A stretch of 32,447 nt of DNA from a virus, in IMG/VR virus record IMGVR_UViG_3300021963_000423, positions 1-32,447 of that record. One strand, given 5' to 3'. Positions 2,837 to 24,220 of this stretch are shown here, piece after piece. Under the pieces are notes generated by a model. It worked only from the letters and a program-made list of their open reading frames with translations. It ran no database searches and was not told the DNA's origin. The first letter of the stretch is position 1, and the number at the start of each line of letters is the position of its first letter. A program made the translations under genes and the position numbers.

Positions 2837-2843
2837 TTTTTTG

Positions 2844-2914
2844 CTTTGGGTAGAGGAATCGAACCTATATTATCTGCTTCGGAGGCAGAAGTCCGACCAT
2901 TAGACGAACCCAAA
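2844..2914 (-). tRNA. tRNA-Arg (anticodon CCG)
   Basis: 71-nt cloverleaf. The acceptor TTTGGGT pairs with ACCCAAA, the D stem is GTCT/GGAC, the anticodon stem TCTGC/GCAGA encloses loop CTCCGAA (anticodon CCG, reads CGG), and the T loop is TTCGATT. The T stem has one T-C mismatch (ATAGG/CCTCT). Discriminator G; no encoded CCA. U1-A72 at the acceptor end is unusual for arginine. CGG should be rare in so AT-rich a genome, so the gene may serve a few codons or compensate for host tRNA damage. Confidence 0.85.
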
Positions 2915-2918
2915 TAAG

Positions 2919-2991
2919 TGTCCCCAGATGGTCTCGAACCATCGACCCGCAGATTAAAAGTCTGCTGCTCTACCAACTGAGCTATAGGAAC
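2919..2991 (-). tRNA. tRNA-Lys (anticodon TTT)
   Basis: 73-nt cloverleaf. Acceptor GTTCCTA/TGGGGAC includes G-T pairs, D arm GCTC/GAGC, anticodon stem GCAGA/TCTGC around loop CTTTTAA (anticodon TTT), T arm GATGG-TTCGAGA-CCATC, discriminator A, no encoded CCA. It is one base away from the Arg-TCT gene and so must be processed from a joint transcript. Confidence 0.92.
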
Positions 2992-2992
2992 G

Positions 2993-3064
2993 CACCCCTG
3001 GCTGGAATCGAACCAGCGACCAACAGATTAGAAGTCTGTTGCTCTTCCGCTGAGCTACAGAGGT
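2993..3064 (-). tRNA. tRNA-Arg (anticodon TCT)
   Basis: 72-nt cloverleaf. Acceptor ACCTCTG/CAGGGGT, D arm GCTC/GAGC, anticodon stem ACAGA/TCTGT around CTTCTAA (anticodon TCT, reads AGA/AGG), T arm GCTGG-TTCGATT-CCAGC, discriminator G, no encoded CCA. AGA is the arginine codon expected to be frequent in an AT-rich phage. Confidence 0.92.
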
Positions 3065-3074
3065 ATACTTTCTG

Positions 3075-3148
3075 TGCGGCAGGTAGGACTCGAACCTACG
3101 ATTACCGAATTATGAGTTCGGGGCTTTAACCAACTAAGCTACTGCCGC
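3075..3148 (-). tRNA. tRNA with CAT anticodon (Met, or Ile2 after lysidine modification)
   Basis: 74-nt cloverleaf. Acceptor GCGGCAG/CTGCCGC, D stem GCTT/AAGC, anticodon stem CCGAA/TTCGG around CTCATAA (anticodon CAT), T arm GTAGG-TTCGAGT-CCTAC, discriminator A, no encoded CCA. The paired G1-C72 argues against an initiator tRNA. Elongator Met and Ile2 (AUA-reading) cannot be separated by eye. It is the first gene of the tRNA transcript. Confidence 0.9.
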
Positions 3149-6825: not shown

Positions 6826-7388
6826 CTTTTTGTCAACACCTCATTCGAATAATGTGCAATGCCGAATGCATCTGCTACATCAAAATCATCTAGCTCTAAA
6901 TTATATTTGTTATTAAAATAATCTACAGTCCTTTGCTTCCTCATATTTCTGATTTGATTCTTATACCATGACTCTGCATGACCTGGATTTTTTAATTTTA
7001 TTGCTGCTTTCTCTTCTTTAGTTGGGTTCTTATTGCCAATATACGCCTGCCAAGAACTAGGGGATATAGTAATAACACTAGCACCACTGGCCATAAGCTC
7101 AGCAATAACAACACCGTAGACATAGGACAATTTTATCACAGCATCAGGCGATCTGACAAGGATAGCTCCCTCAACAACAATGTAATCTGATTTTAATTCA
7201 TCTAGCATTGTCGACATTTTTCTTTTGGCATCATATATCTTTTCGTATATATTCATACCCTCTAATTCTATTTTCCCCCATTTTAAAGGAACATCATTTT
7301 CCATTAAGCAGAAGGCTATTGAATTAGTTGAAGCATCTATCCCTAAAACACGATATGCCTTAGTCTTAATTAAACTAGCTAATGTCAT
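6822..7388 (-). CDS. RuvC-like Holliday junction resolvase
   Basis: 188 residues with an RNase-H fold of the RuvC type. The four acidic catalytic positions are D18 (LGIDAST), E73 (IVVEGA), and D170 and D173 (DDFDVADAFGIAHY). YVYGVVIAELM and ISPSSWQAYIG are typical connecting segments. RuvC cuts four-way junctions; phage versions clear branches from replicating DNA before packaging. The position between the Cas4-like nuclease module and the terminase fits this. It overlaps the zinc-protein gene upstream by 14 bases and the methyltransferase downstream by 4. Confidence 0.88.
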   Translation of the reverse strand: MTLASLIKTKAYRVLGIDASTNSIAFCLMENDVPLKWGKIELEGMNIYEKIYDAKRKMSTMLDELKSDYIVVEGAILVRSPDAVIKLSYVYGVVIAELMASGASVITISPSSWQAYIGNKNPTKEEKAAIKLKNPGHAESWYKNQIRNMRKQRTVDYFNNKYNLELDDFDVADAFGIAHYSNEVLTKR

Positions 7389-8944: not shown

Positions 8945-9102
8945 CCTACAAACCTCTGGACAATCCCATATCCCAGCCATAGGCCAAAGATTCCCATAAG
9001 CCCTGCAAAAACAGGAGGCGCTGGAACTGGCAACTTAAATACACTAAAGATTGCACCAACGCCCATACCAGTGAGAGTTGTTAAAAGTATTTCTCTAATC
9101 AT
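8941..9102 (-). CDS. XapX-domain small membrane protein
   Basis: 53 residues. Two hydrophobic spans (about 5-22 and 31-48) are joined by KLPVPAPPVFAG (23-34), the hallmark of the XapX (DUF1427) domain, which is found in short bacterial membrane proteins of unknown function. An AGGAG site stands 5 bases before the ATG. It overlaps the nuclease gene by 8 bases and the next microprotein by 4. XapX proteins are not an expected part of a phage recombination operon. A role in lysis, superinfection exclusion or membrane anchoring of replication is conceivable but unproven. Confidence 0.72.
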   Translation of the reverse strand: MIREILLTTLTGMGVGAIFSVFKLPVPAPPVFAGLMGIFGLWLGYGIVQRFVG

Positions 9103-11005: not shown

Positions 11006-11210
11006 CGGTTTCCTTTAGTTTAAATGTAAATGTTTGATCATCTGAGTTATAATCAACTTGAAGCTCTTTGTCTTCTGCCCCAGCTTCAATAAATAGGTCT
11101 GATGAAACTTTAATTTCGCCTAAAGTCTCAAGGGCTGCTACTAAAATCTTTGGTACGCTTAGAGAAGAAAAAACTTCTTCTGCTGTAGTAACTTTAATGT
11201 CTTCGCTCAT
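10980..11210 (-). CDS. Small acidic protein, function unknown
   Basis: 76 residues, strongly acidic, with a helical N-half (TTAEEVFSSLSVPKILVAAL) and a beta-like C-half (LQVDYNSDDQTFTFKL). No recognised family. AAAGGAGATACT precedes the ATG, which overlaps the polymerase stop by 4 bases, so it is co-translated with DnaE. It could be a polymerase accessory or regulator, but nothing in the sequence proves that. Confidence 0.6.
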   Translation of the reverse strand: MSEDIKVTTAEEVFSSLSVPKILVAALETLGEIKVSSDLFIEAGAEDKELQVDYNSDDQTFTFKLKETDGSESDNK

Positions 11211-14200
11211 AGTATCTCCTTTATATTTAATGTTCCATCATCTAGTTTAGATAATGTAACCTTGCACTTCATTCCTTCACGCATTTTAGCAAGAGTCATT
11301 TTATACATCGCTGGGAATGCAATGGCTCTTGTCAATTCTTTACTCTTATTAGATAGTACAATATGACTCATTTGTTTACCAGCTTTTGTTGTGTATGGAG
11401 TAAAATTAACAACAATATACTCATCTTCTTCAAGATCATATTGCTTTCTATACAAATAGTCAACAAATATATCATTAGAGTCTGGATTGATATCAGAAAC
11501 CTTTACATATCTAGAGATTCTATTGTCTCCAACTAAAATAAAATACATTTGATTTATTTCAATTTGAGTTTGCTCGTTATGGAAAAGCCCAATAGTTCCA
11601 GTTTCATCAACAAGTTCTACTCTAGCCCAGCCGTTGCCTCGCTTTATGCTCTTTACCATTCCAAACATAACAAACGAGCCTAAGTCATCAAAATCTTCAA
11701 TAGGTCTTGCTTGTGCTTTAATTCTAGGAGGTATACCTTCAAGGTTAAAGCTTGGAATACCTAGGTATTCGTAGTAGTTGTCTTTTTCATTTCCTTGCCT
11801 TTTGTTATCATCAAACGCAGCACCGCCGATGGCGTCAAGAGCAGCAATAGCACGGCTATTAATGCCAGAACCTTTTTTCGATGCCTTACCAATGAAGTCA
11901 GCATAGTTATTATACGGCCTCTTTTCCATTATTTTATTTGCAATATTATCTGAAATATATTTTATTTCAGCTAAACCAAATCTGATCGCATCTTTTTGTA
12001 AAGAAAAATAAATATCTGACTCATTAATATGTGGCAAAAGAACTTTAAGGCCTAATCTTTTTGCCTCAATTAAATATTCTGTTCTTGCGTCTTTGTCATT
12101 TTCATTTTTAAGAATCGAGAACATGAACTCCAGAGGGTAATAAGTTTTGAGCCAAGCAGTATAGTAAGAAAGCATAGAGTAAGCAACAGCATGGGAACGG
12201 TTAAAAGAATAGCCTGCGTGAGCTTCAAAGTCATGCCATAGCGCTTCTGCCTTTTTCTCAGAAATGTGCTTTGTAGCACCAGTAATAAATTTATCTTTGA
12301 ACTGGTCAAATTCTTTTGCATCCTTCTTCTTTCCGATGATCTTACGTACTTTATCAGCTTCAGCCCATGACATGCCACCTAGGTGTACACATGCTTGCAT
12401 AACCTGCTCTTGATATATAATAACACCATATGTATTTTCTGTAAACGGCTTCATAATCTGATGCGTATAGTCAACAGCCTCATTGCCCTGCTTTCTATTA
12501 ATATAAGCAGAACCAACTGTATTCATTGCGCCTGGGCGCACAAGAGCATTAGAAGCTGCAAGATCTTCAAATTTATCTACGCCCATCTTTATCAAAAGAT
12601 TTGTATATGGAGTTGCTTCAGCCTGGAATACTCCGCTTGTATATCCTTCGCTTAGCATCTTATAAACTTTTGGATCATCCATCTTTAGTGTAGAAAAATC
12701 AATTTCTTTTGAATGTCTTTCCTTAATTGATTTTAATGTATCAGAGATCACAGATAAAGTCTTAAGACCTAGGGCATCTAGCTTAATAAGACCAATATCT
12801 GCAACCGTATCCATATCGTATGCCACGACTGGAATTCTTCCTGACACCTTATCCTGTGAATCTTCACGAGATTCTACTGGAGCAAATTTACGCAAATCAT
12901 CTTTTGCAACAACTACACCAGCGGCATGCACTCCAACAGATCTGATTCTTCCACGCAATCGATCTGCTAGCCATACTACCTCTGGGTATCTTGCTCTAAA
13001 CTCTTTTGTATTTGGAGAATCCATGAAGTCCTCGAATGTATCTACTGGTTTTAATGCACGATTAACCTCTTGTAATGGAACCATGAATACACGTGCAGCA
13101 TCTCTAATTACACCCTTATCCTTAAAATATGTGTATGTTGAAATAGACGCAACATGCTTAAACTTCTTCTTTAAATAATCTTTTACTTCTTTTCGACGAC
13201 GGTCCTCAAAGTCTGTATCAATATCAGGGAAATCGTTACGCTCTTCATTGATAAATCTAAAGAACAGTAAATCATACTCAATAGGATCAACATCTGTGAT
13301 GCCTAAAGCGTAGCAAACCAATGATCCAGCGGCTGACCCACGTCCTGGGCCAACCCTAATATCATTTTCTTTTGCCCAGTTAATCATATCTCCAACAACT
13401 AGAAAGTATGATGCAAAGTTTTTCTTAGCAATAATCGAAAGCTCTTCGTTAAGCCTGTCCATATAAATAGCATCTGAAGCCTTCTGAAGCCTTTCTAAGC
13501 CCTTTTCAGCCAACTCTCTTAGTCTTTCATCTGCATCTGTCTTTGGAACTGGCAGAAGGTCTAGACCTTGATTAAAATCATAGTCACCGACCTTGGCAGA
13601 AATCTCCATTGTATTTTCATAAATGTCTGTTCGATTAATCCCAGCCTTATTAAAGTCTGCTTCTATTTCTTTTCGGCTTTGAATAAATAAGTTATAATCT
13701 TGAAATGAAATTCTACGGTCAGGATAAAGATAATTAAATCTATCAATCATGTCTTTCATATTTCTAGACATATCAAAATCAATATCTTTGTCTGCTTTAG
13801 GGGATGTTGATAAGATTAACAAGGCTTCTTCTAGAACCCTATCTTCTTCTTTAGCAAAGTGAGCATCTCCTGTTGCTACCGCCTTAATTTTAAGTTCATC
13901 TGCAAGCTCAAGAAGCTTAGAATTTATTTCCTGCGGATTATGAGACTGAACCTCCACATAAAAATCTTCTTGAAAAGTTTGCTTAAAATCTTTGAGTATA
14001 AGCCTTGCTTCTGAAAACTCACCCTTTTCGATGCATTTACTAATAAGACCATTAAGGCATCCGCTAAGTACAATAATACCTTCTGCATATTCTTTTAAAA
14101 TCTCCTTATCAATACGTGGCTTGTGGTAAAAGCCTTCATTCCAAGCAAGCTCTTGAAGGATATTAATATTCTCCAAACCCTTTTTATTTTTTGCCAGCAA

Positions 14201-14476
14201 GATAATATGGTTGTAGGCTTGAATTGATTTATCTGTTTTAGACGATCTATCAAATCTATCTGTAGGGGATATATATGCTTCCACTCCAAGGATCGGCTTT
14301 ATTCCAAGCTTCTTAGCCGCAATTTGCATATCTCTATGTGATGACAATGTTCCATGGTCTGTTATTGCAATTGCTGTTTGTCCCGCATCAATGGCGGCTT
14401 GACATAGCTCTTCTGGAGAATTTAATCCATCCATTAAAGAATAATATGAATGAACGTGCAAGTGTGTAAAGCTCAT
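11207..14476 (-). CDS. dnaE: DNA polymerase III alpha subunit (DnaE type)
   Basis: 1089 residues. The N-terminal PHP domain begins HLHVHSYYSLMDG (5-17) and keeps ITDHGTLSSH. The polymerase palm carries GPGRGSAAGSLVCYALG and the catalytic aspartates in FPDIDTDFEDRR (about 415-426). Helix-hairpin-helix and OB-fold regions follow near the C-terminus (FVMFGMVKSIKRGNGW). This is a C-family replicase of bacterial type, not the A- or B-family enzyme of most phages, and no clamp, clamp loader or epsilon gene is seen in the window. The ATG at 14476 is chosen (TAATG overlap with the preceding stop) over upstream alternatives. Confidence 0.95.
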   Translation of the reverse strand: MSFTHLHVHSYYSLMDGLNSPEELCQAAIDAGQTAIAITDHGTLSSHRDMQIAAKKLGIKPILGVEAYISPTDRFDRSSKTDKSIQAYNHIILLAKNKKGLENINILQELAWNEGFYHKPRIDKEILKEYAEGIIVLSGCLNGLISKCIEKGEFSEARLILKDFKQTFQEDFYVEVQSHNPQEINSKLLELADELKIKAVATGDAHFAKEEDRVLEEALLILSTSPKADKDIDFDMSRNMKDMIDRFNYLYPDRRISFQDYNLFIQSRKEIEADFNKAGINRTDIYENTMEISAKVGDYDFNQGLDLLPVPKTDADERLRELAEKGLERLQKASDAIYMDRLNEELSIIAKKNFASYFLVVGDMINWAKENDIRVGPGRGSAAGSLVCYALGITDVDPIEYDLLFFRFINEERNDFPDIDTDFEDRRRKEVKDYLKKKFKHVASISTYTYFKDKGVIRDAARVFMVPLQEVNRALKPVDTFEDFMDSPNTKEFRARYPEVVWLADRLRGRIRSVGVHAAGVVVAKDDLRKFAPVESREDSQDKVSGRIPVVAYDMDTVADIGLIKLDALGLKTLSVISDTLKSIKERHSKEIDFSTLKMDDPKVYKMLSEGYTSGVFQAEATPYTNLLIKMGVDKFEDLAASNALVRPGAMNTVGSAYINRKQGNEAVDYTHQIMKPFTENTYGVIIYQEQVMQACVHLGGMSWAEADKVRKIIGKKKDAKEFDQFKDKFITGATKHISEKKAEALWHDFEAHAGYSFNRSHAVAYSMLSYYTAWLKTYYPLEFMFSILKNENDKDARTEYLIEAKRLGLKVLLPHINESDIYFSLQKDAIRFGLAEIKYISDNIANKIMEKRPYNNYADFIGKASKKGSGINSRAIAALDAIGGAAFDDNKRQGNEKDNYYEYLGIPSFNLEGIPPRIKAQARPIEDFDDLGSFVMFGMVKSIKRGNGWARVELVDETGTIGLFHNEQTQIEINQMYFILVGDNRISRYVKVSDINPDSNDIFVDYLYRKQYDLEEDEYIVVNFTPYTTKAGKQMSHIVLSNKSKELTRAIAFPAMYKMTLAKMREGMKCKVTLSKLDDGTLNIKEIL

Positions 14477-14685
14477 TAGTATCCGCCTAAACATTCATTT
14501 CTAGTATGATAAAGTCTAATCTTAATCATTGTTTTTTTATTTGGTGCAGTTAATAGTTCATTACAGGCTCCGCAATTAATATCCCATTCGCCAGAAAAGA
14601 AATCGTAACGGTAACCAAATTTTTGTTTCTGATACTTTTCAATTCTAAATGCAGTAAATGGGTCTGGTATCTCGTATGAAATCAT
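14476..14685 (-). CDS. Small Cys-containing protein before dnaE
   Basis: 69 residues. NCGACNELL (37-45) gives a CxxC pair, and the C-terminal LYHTRNECLGG supplies H and C, so a single zinc site (C-x2-C ... H-x5-C) is plausible. The N-terminal half is aromatic-rich (FGYRYDFFSGEW). No family recognised. There is no Shine-Dalgarno sequence. A TAGAAT -10 box ends 6 bases before the ATG, suggesting a leaderless transcript that then continues into dnaE. Confidence 0.65.
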   Translation of the reverse strand: MISYEIPDPFTAFRIEKYQKQKFGYRYDFFSGEWDINCGACNELLTAPNKKTMIKIRLYHTRNECLGGY

Positions 14686-14744: not shown

Positions 14745-15419
14745 TTACCAAATTACGCTTGAATCATCAGATGAAGGCTCATCTGAATTGCCAGCGTTTT
14801 CACCAGCAAAGAATGACTCCTGCTCTGTGTATGGTAGGTCACGAATTGCTGTAGACTCTAAGTCATACAGCTCTAGCGCTGATGAATCGAAAGGAGCTTC
14901 ATCTTTTGCTAGAGGAATAATTGTATAGCTTGTATCTGTTTTTGTTCCTGAACGCTTAATGCGCCACATGAGATTTGTAATTGAACCCATTTCTCCTGCG
15001 TACTCAATAAGCGTAGGCGTAATAGTTTTTCCACTTGAACCCTGTGAAAGAATTGCAACGTAAGGATCTTCCTTGCCGTCATCAATTAAAACATTAATGT
15101 ATAGTCGTGAGCGGCCTTTCCAGCCTGCCTTGTAATCTTTACGATGTTGTTCGCAACCATAGCACTTACCCTGATCTTCCATCGTACATAGTGCTTTGCG
15201 ACGATAGTCTTTTGGATTTGTATGCTCAACTGCAATAAATCCAAGCCCAGCCTTTTCATCATATGTTGGTGAATCTGGATCTAGTTCTTGCAAGAAACGA
15301 ACCTTTACGCTTTCTGCATCTTCCAGCTTTGCCCAACGAGCCTTTACTCCATCTCCACCTGTATGCTGTGGAGCATCCATAACTTTATTTAGACCTTTTA
15401 GTCCTTTAACGATACCCAT
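14745..15419 (-). CDS. Single-stranded DNA-binding protein (T4 gp32-like)
   Basis: 224 residues. An H66, C78, C86, C89 set (VEHT, LCTM, KCYGC) has nearly the spacing of the zinc-binding His-Cys3 site of T4 gp32. The core continues with basic/aromatic strands (GRSRLYINVLI, MWRIKRSGTKTDTSYTIIPL) typical of an OB fold. The C-terminus is an acidic, serine-rich tail ending DDSSVIW, the partner-binding tail seen in many SSBs. It coats ssDNA at the replication fork. With its own extended -10, an AGGAG-type ribosome site and a terminator directly behind, it is built for separate, probably high, expression. Confidence 0.85.
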   Translation of the reverse strand: MGIVKGLKGLNKVMDAPQHTGGDGVKARWAKLEDAESVKVRFLQELDPDSPTYDEKAGLGFIAVEHTNPKDYRRKALCTMEDQGKCYGCEQHRKDYKAGWKGRSRLYINVLIDDGKEDPYVAILSQGSSGKTITPTLIEYAGEMGSITNLMWRIKRSGTKTDTSYTIIPLAKDEAPFDSSALELYDLESTAIRDLPYTEQESFFAGENAGNSDEPSSDDSSVIW

Positions 15420-15468: not shown

Positions 15469-15477
15469 ATTATATCA
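15469..15477 (-). promoter_or_regulatory. Extended -10 promoter of the ssDNA-binding protein gene
   Basis: Minus strand TGA-TATAAT (hexamer 15469-15474) overlapping the primase stop codon. No good -35 at 16-18 bases. The ~43-base leader can form a small GATGG/CCATC hairpin and ends with a GAGGAGAT ribosome site. The leader might allow autoregulation by the SSB, as in T4 gene 32; that is speculative. Confidence 0.55.
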
Positions 15478-16473
15478 TGGGTTCCAAGATTGATATTCAA
15501 TATTGGAAACTGAATTAACTATGCAAAGCTTTATTTCTTCATCAGTCATATCGCCTGCATCTTTTGCATCATGTGGATATATCTTACCATATTCATAGGA
15601 AGCCCACAAGATATCTTTGTTTCTTAAATTAGACGCAATACTCATTCCAAGGTCTCTTCCAGCCTGGTCTGTGTCCGTCATAATAATAATTTTATTAAAA
15701 TATTTATTTAATATATTTTTTTGCTCATTAGATAAAAAACCACCAAGGGTTGCTACAACATTTGGAAAACCTGCCTGATGAATTCTAATTGCATCAAAGT
15801 TTGACTCCACAACTATAACTTGGTCACCAACTTTTTTTGCACGATGAACATTGAACAAAGTTTTGCTTTTAGGCAAGTTAGTGCTATTCTTAAATGATTT
15901 GCCTTGTATTGACCTTCCTACAATACCAATTGGTGTACCATCTGGGCTATGTACTGGAGTAACAACCATGCTCATTGCGGAAGAATAGCCTAATAGAAAA
16001 TGCTTCATCGAGTCCTGATTGATTCCTCTAGACTCAAGATAATCTCTTGCATTTTTATTTCCTGCAAGATCTGCATGCAGCCTATCTAAAGTTGTCTGAG
16101 AAAATTCTTCAAACTCTGGCTTGTCTAGCATTGCATTAGCCAGCAACTCATCAAAGTTTTCTAAAGATTCAAAGCCTTTTGCTGATATAAATCTTAAAGC
16201 TTCAAAATCATTTTTGTGTGATACACGCTTTACTAATTCTATTAGAGAACCAGACTCGCCGCATGCTGGGTTATAGCAAAGCCATGCGCCAGATTTGCTG
16301 CTTATACAGCAGCTAGCGCTATGCCTATTTGAATGAAATGGGCAATAAAACATTATGTCGTTGCCAGGCTCACTTGTTATATCAAGACCTAACTCTTTTA
16401 GGATCGACTTGATATGCCCTGTAGCGTACTGCGTGGAATCAATTTTCCTTGCATAATCGCCTCTGCTTCGCAT
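15475..16473 (-). CDS. DnaG-type primase (CHC2 zinc finger and TOPRIM)
   Basis: About 332 residues from the ATG at 16473. The CHC2 zinc finger is CPFH (about 44-47) with LCYNPAC downstream. The TOPRIM domain shows VIVVESNFDAI, the glycine strand VATLGGFLS and IIIMTDTDQAGRDLG, the acidic metal site. It makes RNA primers for the phage DnaE. The C-terminal helicase-binding domain of DnaG is absent or very short. The start is uncertain: ATG at 16473 has a GAAGAAGG tract in front, whereas ATG at 16524 would lengthen the overlap with the gene at 16398-16700 from 76 to 127 bases. No other start codon precedes the zinc finger. Confidence 0.88.
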   Translation of the reverse strand: MRSRGDYARKIDSTQYATGHIKSILKELGLDITSEPGNDIMFYCPFHSNRHSASCCISSKSGAWLCYNPACGESGSLIELVKRVSHKNDFEALRFISAKGFESLENFDELLANAMLDKPEFEEFSQTTLDRLHADLAGNKNARDYLESRGINQDSMKHFLLGYSSAMSMVVTPVHSPDGTPIGIVGRSIQGKSFKNSTNLPKSKTLFNVHRAKKVGDQVIVVESNFDAIRIHQAGFPNVVATLGGFLSNEQKNILNKYFNKIIIMTDTDQAGRDLGMSIASNLRNKDILWASYEYGKIYPHDAKDAGDMTDEEIKLCIVNSVSNIEYQSWNP

Positions 16474-16700
16474 GCCTTCTTCTTCCCAACATATACGCCA
16501 TAGAGACTCATTAGGAATCTCCATGCTTGACCATCAAATTCTACCGAAAAGTTAGTATCTATGTCAAGCACTCTAAGATACCCTTTATCCCTCATCTGAT
16601 GAGTAAGCATGCTTTCGTACTGATGCTTAACTCTAACCATATCTGAGTCGTCTCTAAAATCAACCCTTACTTGAAATCTTTTTATCTGTTTGTGATTCAT
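16398..16700 (-). CDS. Conserved-looking phage protein overlapping the primase gene
   Basis: 100 residues from the ATG at 16700. The order FQVRVDF, MLTHQMRDKGYLRVLDID, FDGQAWRFLMSLYGVYVGKKKA looks like a real alpha/beta protein and resembles small proteins next to phage helicase and primase genes. Its function is unknown. It overlaps the helicase end by 41 bases and the primase start by at least 76, so its last ~25 codons are read in two frames. Position suggests a helicase-primase accessory factor. Confidence 0.65.
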   Translation of the reverse strand: MNHKQIKRFQVRVDFRDDSDMVRVKHQYESMLTHQMRDKGYLRVLDIDTNFSVEFDGQAWRFLMSLYGVYVGKKKACEAEAIMQGKLIPRSTLQGISSRS

Positions 16701-17928
16701 TATTTTGGAATGGATTCTCATAAATCTCTTTGACGATACCTCTATTGATATCCCAATCTAAGTATAAACCAAACTCATGTCCATGTCGATTCTTTCTAGA
16801 AACTACCTCAATCATATTAGTTCCTGGGTATCTATGAACAGCCATTGCCATGTCAGCATCATACTCAATTGCTTTTGACCAAGCTACCTGAGACATCATT
16901 GGAGGGTTATCCTGATCTGAAACATCATCAGCAGTTGCTGCAGTAATATCAATAATTGGAATGTTATTAGATACGGCAAGCATCTTGAATTCACGAGACA
17001 CGTTACGGTTTCTCTCAACTTCAGAGTTGCTTCGCTTATTATCATTAAATAGCTGGTGGTAATCAAGAATAACTAAATCTGGCTTATGCTGATCAATCTT
17101 ACCTTGAATAGTAGCAGGCGTTACCTCATTATTTCCTTCATTTGAAATAAGTATAAAGCTATTCTTATTCTCGAACTTTTTTTGTGACCATGAACGGAAA
17201 TCATCAATATTAATATCGCCCTTTGAAAAATCAGAGGCCTTAAATAAGCCTGACCCTAGCATAGTATAAATACGATCTCGCATATTCTCAGGAGACATTT
17301 CAAGAGAAACGATCATAGGCTTAAAGCCTTGTTCCCAAGCCTTGCAAGCTAGGTAGGATGTGAACCATGTCTTACCACGCCCTGGCCAGCCGATAGCGAC
17401 GATCAAGTGCCCTGGAGCCATACCTGTTGGGTACGCCAAGTCTATGGCCTCAAAACCCGTCTTAATGCCTGGAGAGCCACCCATTTCGGCAGAGCGTACT
17501 CTAAGCAATTCCATATGCCTAATTGCTGCTTCTGAATCAGTTATATCTAAGTCTCTAACATTATTGGTAAATCTACTTAGACCAGCCAGTTGGGACTGCA
17601 TGTTCTCTAAAACTCTTGATGCGGCATCTTCTTTTAGGGATGAGCCTGCACGAAGAATAATTGTCTTAAGTTTATTTGAAATAAACTCGTTCTTAAGTGT
17701 ATCAAGATAGTATCCAGTCTGACCTTTGACATCTACTGGCTCAAAGTCTTTAAATTTTTCTTGCAGAATTCCAGCTTCTGGAACTGCCTTAAATTTATAG
17801 TAGTAGGACTTAAGTCCATCCCAGATATCTTTGTGTGATGTGAATAGGTCGTCTACATTGTCCGCAAGCAGCGTACTAATATCTTTATTTTTACATACTG
17901 CTGAGATCAGCTCTGCTTCTGTGTTCAT
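16660..17928 (-). CDS. DnaB-like replicative helicase
   Basis: 422 residues. An N-terminal helical domain (1-130) is followed by the RecA-like ATPase: Walker A GWPGRGKTWF (about 179-188), MIVSLEMSPENM, and Walker B LVILDYHQLF. KAIEYDADMAMAVHR and SRKNRHG near the end are helicase motif 4 and arginine-finger regions. It unwinds DNA 5' to 3' as a hexamer ahead of the polymerase. The ATG overlaps the stop of the amber-interrupted gene (ATGA). Confidence 0.9.
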   Translation of the reverse strand: MNTEAELISAVCKNKDISTLLADNVDDLFTSHKDIWDGLKSYYYKFKAVPEAGILQEKFKDFEPVDVKGQTGYYLDTLKNEFISNKLKTIILRAGSSLKEDAASRVLENMQSQLAGLSRFTNNVRDLDITDSEAAIRHMELLRVRSAEMGGSPGIKTGFEAIDLAYPTGMAPGHLIVAIGWPGRGKTWFTSYLACKAWEQGFKPMIVSLEMSPENMRDRIYTMLGSGLFKASDFSKGDINIDDFRSWSQKKFENKNSFILISNEGNNEVTPATIQGKIDQHKPDLVILDYHQLFNDNKRSNSEVERNRNVSREFKMLAVSNNIPIIDITAATADDVSDQDNPPMMSQVAWSKAIEYDADMAMAVHRYPGTNMIEVVSRKNRHGHEFGLYLDWDINRGIVKEIYENPFQNNESQTDKKISSKG

Positions 17929-18248
17929 TCAATTCCGCCTTGCTCAACCATCTTCTTCGTTTCTTCTAGTAACAAACGACGCTTTTCTTTGTCTTTTTCA
18001 ATTTCAGTTTTTAGTGCATCCATCTTATCAAAATTATAAAAAAAGAACTGCAGTGGATGTCCATTTTTAGTAAGACCGAAGTAGTACTCTAGCAGCTATT
18101 TTGCACGATCAAATCCTACACTATCAATCACATCTTGCATAGCCCACTTTTCACGAAACTTATTTATGTTTGCAATACGACCATACCTCTCTTTATAAAG
18201 ATTCTGATAAAGAGTCATTAAGATATAGGGCTCTTTATTATTTGCCAC
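17925..18248 (-). pseudogene. Phage replication-region protein interrupted by an in-frame TAG
   Basis: A single reading frame of 108 codons, GTG (18248) to TGA (17925), broken only by TAG at 18096-18098. Part one is 50 residues (MTLYQNLYKERYGR, NKFREKWAMQDVIDSVGFDRAK) and part two 56 (LLEYYFGLTKNGHPLQFFFY ... EETKKMVEQGG). Joined, they read as one helical protein with a natural Y-G-R / E-K-W / H-P-L-Q-F-F-x-Y pattern like small proteins beside phage helicases, possibly a helicase loader. The start overlaps the previous gene by 11 bases and the stop overlaps the helicase ATG, so the frame is under operon constraint along its whole length. Readthrough, a recent mutation, two separate peptides or a sequencing error are all possible. 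Confidence 0.7.
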
Positions 18249-18441
18249 TCTTTAGCTCTTCCTCAATCTCTACAGTTTTTGCAATTAGCTTTTCTTCCAC
18301 AAACTTGTAGACTCTTTCTGTAGCAGAATCAACTGTTTCTCCAGAGCGCATGTCATCTTCTATGCCTATGCCAATCTTGATGCTTTCGTAATTACCTAAA
18401 TTTCTAGTAAACGAAAGGTCCACTTTAACTCTAGTTGTCAT
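18238..18441 (-). CDS. Small phage protein, function unknown
   Basis: 67 residues. A beta-rich N-half (VKVDLSFTRNLGNYESIKIGIGIED) leads into an acidic helix (ATERVYKFVEEKLIAKTVEIEEEL). Resembles small conserved proteins in phage replication regions but no domain can be named. AAGGAG stands 6 bases before the ATG. It overlaps the zinc-finger microgene upstream by 11 bases and the GTG start downstream by 11. Confidence 0.7.
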   Translation of the reverse strand: MTTRVKVDLSFTRNLGNYESIKIGIGIEDDMRSGETVDSATERVYKFVEEKLIAKTVEIEEELKSGK

Positions 18442-20965: not shown

Positions 20966-23900
20966 TTATACGTATGTTGATGCTGATGGATACCAAGCTG
21001 AGTAATTTGAGCTGCCAGCTGAGTTGTAGGCCAGCACTATTGCTCCAGCGTAGTTACAATATACTCCAGTCGATGGGTTATTTGCATAAGTGATCTGATA
21101 GCTTGTAACGTTTCCAACATCGATATTTGTTCCGCCAGCAAAAGCATTTGCTCCAGTTGCGTTAGATGCAAGCCAGTACGTCACTCTGTATCCAGTTGCT
21201 CCAGGTGAGGCCGTCCAAGTCATCAATCCGCTTCCGCTTACTGATAGTCCAGTAGGTGTGGCTGGTGTAGTAACTGTTGGGAAGTAAGGAGGGAAGAACG
21301 GTGGGAAGTGTGGTGGGAAGAACGGTGGGAAGAATGGCGGGAAGTGTGGTGGGAAGAATGGTGGGAAGTGTGGAGGGAAGAACGGTGGGAAGAACGGTGG
21401 GAAGTAAGGTGCAACTACAGCTGCTTGGTTAGTAGCAGTAGTTAGCGTGGTAGTAGCAACATCTCCGCCATTGCTTGTAACATCTTGCTTCATGACAGAT
21501 GTAGATGTAGCAGTATATGTTGTAGTAATTGGAGCGGTTCCATTAAAATAAACACGATATTTGCTATTTTGAATTGGTGTGGTTGGATAGCTTGTTATAA
21601 CTCCAGAACCACTGTTTGCATCAATTAAATATGCTGCAGCTGTTGATTGAATTGCAAATCTATCGATAATCATTATATCGGCATACTGCTGACCTGCATA
21701 AAATGTTGCTTCATATGTCATTATATTTGCAGAGTTACCGTATTGGTATCCGCTCCATCTAATTATATATTTAGATGTGTTAGACCAGTAGTATAGTGAT
21801 GATTGAACCATGTCTAGAGGCAAAATAGCTAGGACCTGTCCTGCTGTTGACATAACAGAGTCTGCTGAGTTTTCAGTAACAGTTGTTGATGAGCCTAATG
21901 ATATATACCCATTTGTTGAAACACTTAGCTTATTTCCAAACTGGAATGTGTAGCTTGGAGGAGAGTATGTCCATCTTGCATACATTGTTCTGCTAGATGC
22001 TGGAGGACTCCATGTTCCTCCTCCAACTACGCTCAATAAATAAGTTCCAGATGACGTCTCTGTAAATCTATCCAAAGTATAGTTTGCTCTGGTTGGGCTT
22101 GGTGCAGTAACTGATCCTCCAGCAGAAAATGTTGAAGTTGATATTGTTCCAGTTCCATCATTCTTGTCCCATGTAATCGTATAAACAATTGGTGTTACTG
22201 GGCCAACCTCACCACCTGCTACTTGAGATGAAGATCCAGCACCGTTTGTAGCTGTAACAAATATTCTTAAATAGCGCCTTACTGGGCTTATGCCAGTATT
22301 TGTATAGTCTTCCGCTGTAATAGTATAAGTTCCAGTAGTGGTTGGAGCAGTTAAATTTTGTGTCGATACAAGAGTTTCACTTGTTGCAACTCCTGCGGTT
22401 CCTCTATAAATTTTAACGGTATACCCTGTTGGAGAATTAGTCCAAGAACCAACACTAAAATCTAAAACGCTTCCTACTGACAAGGAAGTTCCAGAAAGCG
22501 TTGGGAGTGATGTATTAGATGGCTTATTTGCAATTACTACGCTCTTACTTCTTAGAGCAGATCTGGATGTATCTCCTTGTGGAATTGTTGAAACTGTTGC
22601 CGTAATAGTTCCGCCAGTTGAAAATGATTGTACGTCAGAAAATGTAGGGTTACCTGCGCCTGGGCTAAAACTTTGCCAGCCAGTTGATTCCCCGTCGCTA
22701 TAATCAATTTTCCATGATCTAGGCCTTGAAGTATTGTTATATGGGTAAGATCCAGTGTATCCGCTAAATGTTACGTCTGTATTTATTTCAGCAGTAGCTG
22801 GCGATGGATCATATAAAGCAACAGTTGTTGAGCAATTTATTGGAATATACCCGCCAACATCCCCGTTAAAGTACATGCTTCCTTCAGTTGCAGATGTAGA
22901 TCCAGTTGCGTAAACTCTTTGCTGTGTGCCAGTCTTTGCGCTTATTCTTATTTCTAGCTGCCATCTTGCCTGACCGTTATTGTAAGTAGGGGTTCCAGTC
23001 AAATAGGATGCGTCAATCCACTCTCTATCTGTTACTGTTGCTGTTGTTCCATTTAGAACTACTCCTCCCAAATAGCCGTTACCGCTGCCGTCTGAGTTAT
23101 ATGAAGATCCCCATGTTGTTCCGTTTGAAAAAGATGTTCCTGTTATAAAATTTTTATATGGATTTGAAGATGCGCTATTATCATAAAGCCTATACTCAAC
23201 TCTATATAAAGTGCTTGATGAAACGTTTGCAACATCAAAAATTAAATCCCAAATTCCATCTGATATTATTCTATTTAGGCTGTCAGTAGCATAGTTTCCA
23301 TTTATATCTCTAAACCTTATATTACTTATTGATGGTAGTGTTCCGCTTTCCTTTTTTGCAATTACCTCTGTACTGTAATATGTTGTATAAGAGTTTTTTA
23401 AAACAACTTCTGCAATTATAAATACCCCTGGAGCTGGAGCAACAGCAGTAGAATAAATTGATATTCCATTTAAATCTGGTGAATTTGATGATCCGTCTGT
23501 CCAGCCAGTTCCAAATTTTTGTATACCAGATCCGCTCAGATAGTCTGTCTGTAAAATTGTTCCATTTCTGTAATTTACTTTGTCTGTGTGACTCCACCAT
23601 CTAACATATGATTCTGATAGATTAGGAGACTCATACCATTTTGAGGATGCATAAAACTCCATTTGATATACTCCATCTGTTTCAGTAAAAATAGTTGATG
23701 TTATCGACGGAGTTTTTTTAATTATTTTAATTGGTGTAGATGGACCATTAAGGACAGTGGAGTCATAAGCATTTGTTGCAGTAAGCTGATAGTATAAATA
23801 GTTGCCATCAATTAGATTTATAGTAGATGCTCCATTATTAGATAAATTTAATACATCTGTTCCCACTGCTTCCAAGGGTGTGCTAACTATGCTGTTTAAA

Positions 23901-24220
23901 TTAGCCGCAGTTGCAGATAAAAACTGTCTATTTGTTATACTTAATATTGGCTTTCCAGTAAAATCTCCATCATGTCCGTACAAAACAGTGTCAATGTATT
24001 GAGGACTTGTTGCTACGGTTCCATTATAAGAATTTAATCTAATATTAATAGGATCAGAAACTAAGGATCCAGGGGCGTCGCCAGGCCACATCTTTATCCA
24101 GCCTGTGGCAACTTTTGCCCACACGCCGTTTGCTAATGACCATGTACTTGTACCAGTCTTAGCAAATACTTTTTTAGCGGCAGACCAAGTAGTAGAACCA
24201 GTCTTAGCGAATAAACCCAT
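20966..24220 (-). CDS. Large tail fibre / adhesin-like protein with xFPP repeat
   Basis: 1084 residues. Residues 4-45 hold a duplicated AKTG(S/T)xTWS unit ending in GWIKMWPG, typical of tail fibre N-termini. A long Ser/Thr/Gly/Asn-rich beta region with Ig-like character follows. Residues ~680-750 (ITWDKNDGTGTI ... MYARWTY) match the InlB B-repeat/Flg_new module. Then comes a tandem array of eleven xFPP units (939-982) and a C-terminal fibronectin type III-like domain (about 985-1084, PTGLSVSGSGLMTWTAS). Such modules bind surfaces, so receptor recognition is likely. The array would form a stiff, aromatic polyproline rod presenting the terminal domain. AGG before the ATG; short gap from the previous gene. 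Confidence 0.75.
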   Translation of the reverse strand: MGLFAKTGSTTWSAAKKVFAKTGTSTWSLANGVWAKVATGWIKMWPGDAPGSLVSDPINIRLNSYNGTVATSPQYIDTVLYGHDGDFTGKPILSITNRQFLSATAANLNSIVSTPLEAVGTDVLNLSNNGASTINLIDGNYLYYQLTATNAYDSTVLNGPSTPIKIIKKTPSITSTIFTETDGVYQMEFYASSKWYESPNLSESYVRWWSHTDKVNYRNGTILQTDYLSGSGIQKFGTGWTDGSSNSPDLNGISIYSTAVAPAPGVFIIAEVVLKNSYTTYYSTEVIAKKESGTLPSISNIRFRDINGNYATDSLNRIISDGIWDLIFDVANVSSSTLYRVEYRLYDNSASSNPYKNFITGTSFSNGTTWGSSYNSDGSGNGYLGGVVLNGTTATVTDREWIDASYLTGTPTYNNGQARWQLEIRISAKTGTQQRVYATGSTSATEGSMYFNGDVGGYIPINCSTTVALYDPSPATAEINTDVTFSGYTGSYPYNNTSRPRSWKIDYSDGESTGWQSFSPGAGNPTFSDVQSFSTGGTITATVSTIPQGDTSRSALRSKSVVIANKPSNTSLPTLSGTSLSVGSVLDFSVGSWTNSPTGYTVKIYRGTAGVATSETLVSTQNLTAPTTTGTYTITAEDYTNTGISPVRRYLRIFVTATNGAGSSSQVAGGEVGPVTPIVYTITWDKNDGTGTISTSTFSAGGSVTAPSPTRANYTLDRFTETSSGTYLLSVVGGGTWSPPASSRTMYARWTYSPPSYTFQFGNKLSVSTNGYISLGSSTTVTENSADSVMSTAGQVLAILPLDMVQSSLYYWSNTSKYIIRWSGYQYGNSANIMTYEATFYAGQQYADIMIIDRFAIQSTAAAYLIDANSGSGVITSYPTTPIQNSKYRVYFNGTAPITTTYTATSTSVMKQDVTSNGGDVATTTLTTATNQAAVVAPYFPPFFPPFFPPHFPPFFPPHFPPFFPPFFPPHFPPFFPPYFPTVTTPATPTGLSVSGSGLMTWTASPGATGYRVTYWLASNATGANAFAGGTNIDVGNVTSYQITYANNPSTGVYCNYAGAIVLAYNSAGSSNYSAWYPSASTYV
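21275..21406 (-). repeat. 12-bp tandem repeat (11 units) encoding xFPP
   Basis: Eleven consecutive 12-bp units, consensus TTC-TTC-CCA-CCN on the minus strand, translating as (Y/F/H)-F-P-P; the last unit ends in T. The first codon varies between TTC, CAC and TAC, and the third positions of the proline codons vary, so the array is not freshly copied. Gain or loss of units preserves the frame and would change the length of the linker before the C-terminal domain. Confidence 0.92.

Follow-up and report, generated by a model that had tools for sequence, protein, structure and literature searches.

Is the single amber codon inside an otherwise intact gene of this phage's replication block a real and decoded feature, a boundary between two genes, or an error or recent mutation? 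In the window, the whole stretch of 32,447 nt analysed here (IMG/VR record IMGVR_UViG_3300021963_000423, positions 1 to 32,447), the minus-strand frame from GTG at 18248 to TGA at 17925 comprises 108 codons with a single internal stop, TAG at 18098-18096. Direct translation of the minus strand (window:17925-18248) gave VANNKEPYILMTLYQNLYKERYGRIANINKFREKWAMQDVIDSVGFDRAK, followed by TAG (18098-18096), LLEYYFGLTKNGHPLQFFFYNFDKMDALKTEIEKDKEKRRLLLEETKKMVEQGGIE and TGA (17927-17925), confirming the preliminary description of a frame that is open except for the TAG. The overlaps that it had described at both ends were also found, and amount to 11 nt with the upstream ORF and 4 nt with the helicase gene, which starts with ATG at 17928. 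The features of the locus and of the replication block, all on the minus strand, are as follows.

18238-18441, minus strand: small upstream ORF, PHROG 5189 (unknown function), overlapping the GTG start
17925-18248, minus strand: conserved 107-residue phage gene, interrupted in the window, PHROG 11101 (from homologues, profile and AlphaFold2 model)
18099-18248, minus strand: 50-residue N-terminal product if the TAG terminates, with its end within the third predicted helix (from translation and model)
18096-18098, minus strand: in-frame TAG, codon 51, private to record IMGVR_UViG_3300021963_000423 (from translation; sense in 166/166 relatives)
17928-18095, minus strand: 56 codons 3' of the TAG, strongly conserved (from dN/dS comparison)
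16660-17928, minus strand: DnaB-like replicative helicase, starting with an ATG that overlaps the final TGA of the gene with the TAG
15475-16524, minus strand: DnaG-like primase (Toprim), replication block
14745-15419, minus strand: single-strand DNA-binding protein, replication block
11207-14494, minus strand: phage DNA polymerase, replication block

A tblastn search of IMG/VR with the joined frame gave 387 related stretches, and the top 80 were 72-92% identical and colinear across the TAG; 127 Streptomyces phage records were matched as well (30-39% identity among the matches listed). The two halves thus belong to one protein, as had been proposed from the window alone. With the TAG read as Q, the product matched the PHROG 11101 profile significantly across its length (E 7.6e-23; residues 3-102 on profile positions 8-107 of 121) and was assigned to this family. 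An AlphaFold2 model built from 52 diverse members predicted a single four-helix chain (pLDDT 89.8), and 8 of the 13 invariant residues of the gene fall 3' of the TAG. The gene product gave nothing significant in Pfam and no significant match in the PDB by sequence or by fold, known helicase loaders included, and the best viral fold matches to the four-helix model were unnamed or uncharacterised phage proteins. In bacterial and archaeal genomes one relative was found, in a metagenome-assembled genome labelled uncultured cyanobacterium, with ACT at codon 51; it sits in a 110-kb contig, possibly a wrongly binned phage.

Codon 51 was compared in the relatives. Every one of the 80 close relatives has a sense codon there, and so does each of the 166 loci in the wider set, in which the codon reads GAA in 54, GAG in 51, GAT in 15 and CAG in 9 loci, with other codons in the remainder; the encoded residues are E, V, D, Q, F, A, N, T, K, S, I and R. 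No internal stop was present anywhere in the matched stretch of the 166 relative loci, and a scan of 2.9 million viral contigs (IMG/VR) for the motif with the TAG in place gave no match. Among the sequences searched, the TAG is private to this record. Judging from the GAG and GAA codons of the nearest relatives, it most likely derives from a glutamate codon by one G-to-T change; this origin is a reconstruction, because even the nearest relative is just about 85% identical in DNA over 1.8 kb.

Downstream of the stop, the gene has kept its constraint. Relative to the nearest relatives, the 56 codons after the TAG carry 18-22 synonymous and 1-8 nonsynonymous differences (dN 0.007-0.06, dS 1.1-1.8), and none of their residues is private to the window when set against the 166 loci. 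With the downstream codons apparently still under full constraint, the stop would be either very young, with no time for selection to relax, or not real. An old pseudogene or an old split gene was rejected, as the pattern of downstream constraint would differ.

The stop is also isolated within the window. Comparison of 1,492 ORFs of nine relative contigs with the window, spanning those parts of the window that have homologues in the nine, yielded one real in-frame stop, the TAG at 18096-18098, which was found with all nine; no frameshift or frame switch was seen in the comparable parts. Other candidates in this comparison were each supported by one ORF and were read as antisense or spurious ORFs or as differing start sites. 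At sites that are conserved elsewhere, the window has seven private substitutions, much like other lone lineages; as there is no general excess of odd private substitutions, the window is not generally poor sequence, and poor overall quality is not supported as the cause of the TAG.

In the reciprocal comparison, which covered 216,164 codons in the relatives, one analogous private stop was found, a TAA in the DNA polymerase gene of IMGVR_UViG_3300020141_000372 (L036, 9145-9147). As is likely for the window, one change has turned a glutamate codon into a stop while leaving the essential gene around it intact, and the contig belongs to the same group of phages. The two cases differ in the codon, TAA in L036 and TAG in the window, and in that a near-identical contig was found for L036 only: L033, 99.8% identical to it over 601 nt, has GAA at the site. 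Lone private lesions in these contigs therefore occur at very roughly one per hundred thousand codons, a rate that is only rough because many of the contigs are near duplicates. In another relative (L051, at about 9963), the polymerase gene aligns in two different frames and lacks about 62 residues at the junction, which suggests a deletion or an assembly join.

Whether TAG terminates elsewhere in the window bears on every reading in which codon 51 is decoded. It ends 8 of the 40 listed window genes, several of them at ends that relatives share, so TAG terminates in the window and the earlier statement that it is used as an ordinary stop is borne out. For the TAG at 7375, all eight relatives compared have TAG as well; at 9095, where the window gene ends with TAG, all eight relatives end with TAA or TGA, seven at the same place and one a codon earlier. 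Amber-recoded phages (code 15, crAss-like, Lak, phAss-1) resemble the window in having an in-frame TAG in a conserved phage gene, and a changed code in which TAG stands for an amino acid would account for that one codon. A phage with such a code would be expected to carry many in-frame TAGs at conserved positions and to avoid TAG as a terminator. Recoded phages such as phAss-1 have dozens of ORFs with TAG, often together with CTA suppressor tRNAs; for phAss-1 the count is 41 ORFs, alongside three suppressor tRNAs (PMC10607447). The window has a single in-frame TAG in roughly 10,500 codons and eight genes that end with TAG, and no CTA tRNA was seen in it or in nine relative contigs. Recoding by a changed code is already largely refuted, and we regard its probability as negligible.

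Another reading is that the locus now holds two working genes, the second being re-initiated after the TAG, or that the short form is functional. None of the 166 relatives is split; the possibility that relatives encode two separate genes here, which the preliminary description had named as decisive against a single interrupted gene, is not what was found. A CTG directly after the TAG could in principle start translation, but no in-frame ATG, GTG or TTG follows until an ATG about 25 codons on, the TAG sits mid-helix in the predicted structure, and most of the invariant residues would be left on the far side of it. We consider this reading extremely improbable. Readthrough is a less remote but still distinctly unlikely explanation. 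It would require the amber codon to be real and to be decoded usefully into full-length protein, by a CTA-anticodon tRNA of host or phage or by near-cognate decoding. A search for a tRNA with this anticodon, which the preliminary description had proposed for phage and host, detected none in the window and none in nine long contigs of relatives; the window encodes four tRNA genes (2843-3148: Arg-CCG, Lys-TTT, Arg-TCT, Met-CAT), and the tRNA islands of relatives vary, some of them including Gln-CTG/TTG, Trp-CCA or Leu-TAG. The window is, however, part of a genome of about 115 kb in relatives, so that a tRNA gene outside it is possible. Programmed readthrough is recognised by a stop that is conserved among relatives and followed by an open frame, but the stop is present in 0 of 166; the RNA downstream of the stop is predicted to fold no more stably than shuffled controls (z 0.31), and the conserved ends at 7375 and 9095 speak for genuine termination at TAG. 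What readthrough has in its favour is that the gene is otherwise intact and under constraint, that a position which takes 12 residues in relatives would tolerate almost any inserted residue, and that the base directly after the TAG is C; in E. coli, a C in that place makes UAG a comparatively leaky stop. A more specific version, a real, lineage-specific amber codon suppressed in the host of this phage, which would restrict production of one replication-block protein to hosts or stages of infection in which a tRNA decodes amber, is very unlikely, and somewhat more so than readthrough at large.

With a probability of about 90%, we therefore regard the TAG as a nonsense change of one base, private to this record, that reflects either an error in the consensus or a loss-of-function variant of very recent origin. 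Of the four options put forward originally, recent nonsense mutation and assembly error stood up, given the sense codons in 166/166 relatives and the private stop in L036, and nothing was found in support of programmed readthrough or of a suppressor tRNA outside the window. Of these two, an error in the assembled consensus (a miscall, a DNA-damage artefact or low coverage) has marginally better than even odds; a true, very recent loss-of-function variant in the sampled population is a serious contender at clearly less than even odds. The balance tips slightly towards error, since in a gene this strongly conserved a null allele would be expected to form the majority sequence only rarely. An ordinary, strongly conserved replication-block gene of an uncultured tailed phage would thus have been hit by one private base change, turning a glutamate codon into TAG via a single G-to-T. 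If the change is real and unsuppressed, the product would be a 50-residue fragment that breaks off within the third of the four helices in the model, and translation of the helicase gene would have to begin with no ribosomes coming in from the gene before it. Oxidative damage is recognised as a source of artefactual G:C to T:A changes in sequencing data (PMC5521083); the TAG of the window and the TAA of L036 both fit a G-to-T change, although two cases prove nothing. Phage genomes assembled from metagenomes do contain single private stops, even within genes for DNA polymerase, and such a stop alone should not be taken as evidence of recoding.

Judged from its position, the gene in its intact form probably serves the DnaB-like helicase as an accessory. 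Its earlier designation as a replication gene agrees with the synteny with the replication block but goes beyond the family annotation, PHROG 11101 being labelled "unknown function"; the designation rests on synteny, because the family has no assigned function. In Streptomyces phage Moab (Stanwilliamsviridae, Gilsonvirus), the homologue gp55 lies just before a DnaB-like helicase, followed by primase, SSB and a DnaE-like polymerase, and the order in the window is the same. The Streptomyces phage homologues, such as Moab gp55, are near full-length (30-39% identity among the matches listed) and uninterrupted, whereas the window has the TAG at codon 51. As a conserved gene before the DnaB-like helicase that is common to environmental and Streptomyces phages, it is a fair target as a possible helicase partner.

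Three further observations were made on genes of the window. The gene at 1502-2215 ends with TAG (1502-1504) and the next gene, at 1079-1492, carries on in that frame; in four relatives the stop comes one codon before this TAG, so the two are separate genes. The ORF at 20966-24220 (1,084 residues) has no PHROG or Pfam match and is little covered by the nine relatives compared. Within the replication block, a conserved 107-residue ORF at 16398-16721 overlaps the start of the primase gene (15475-16524) by about 127 nt, the same arrangement as the overlap of gp57 and gp58 in Moab.
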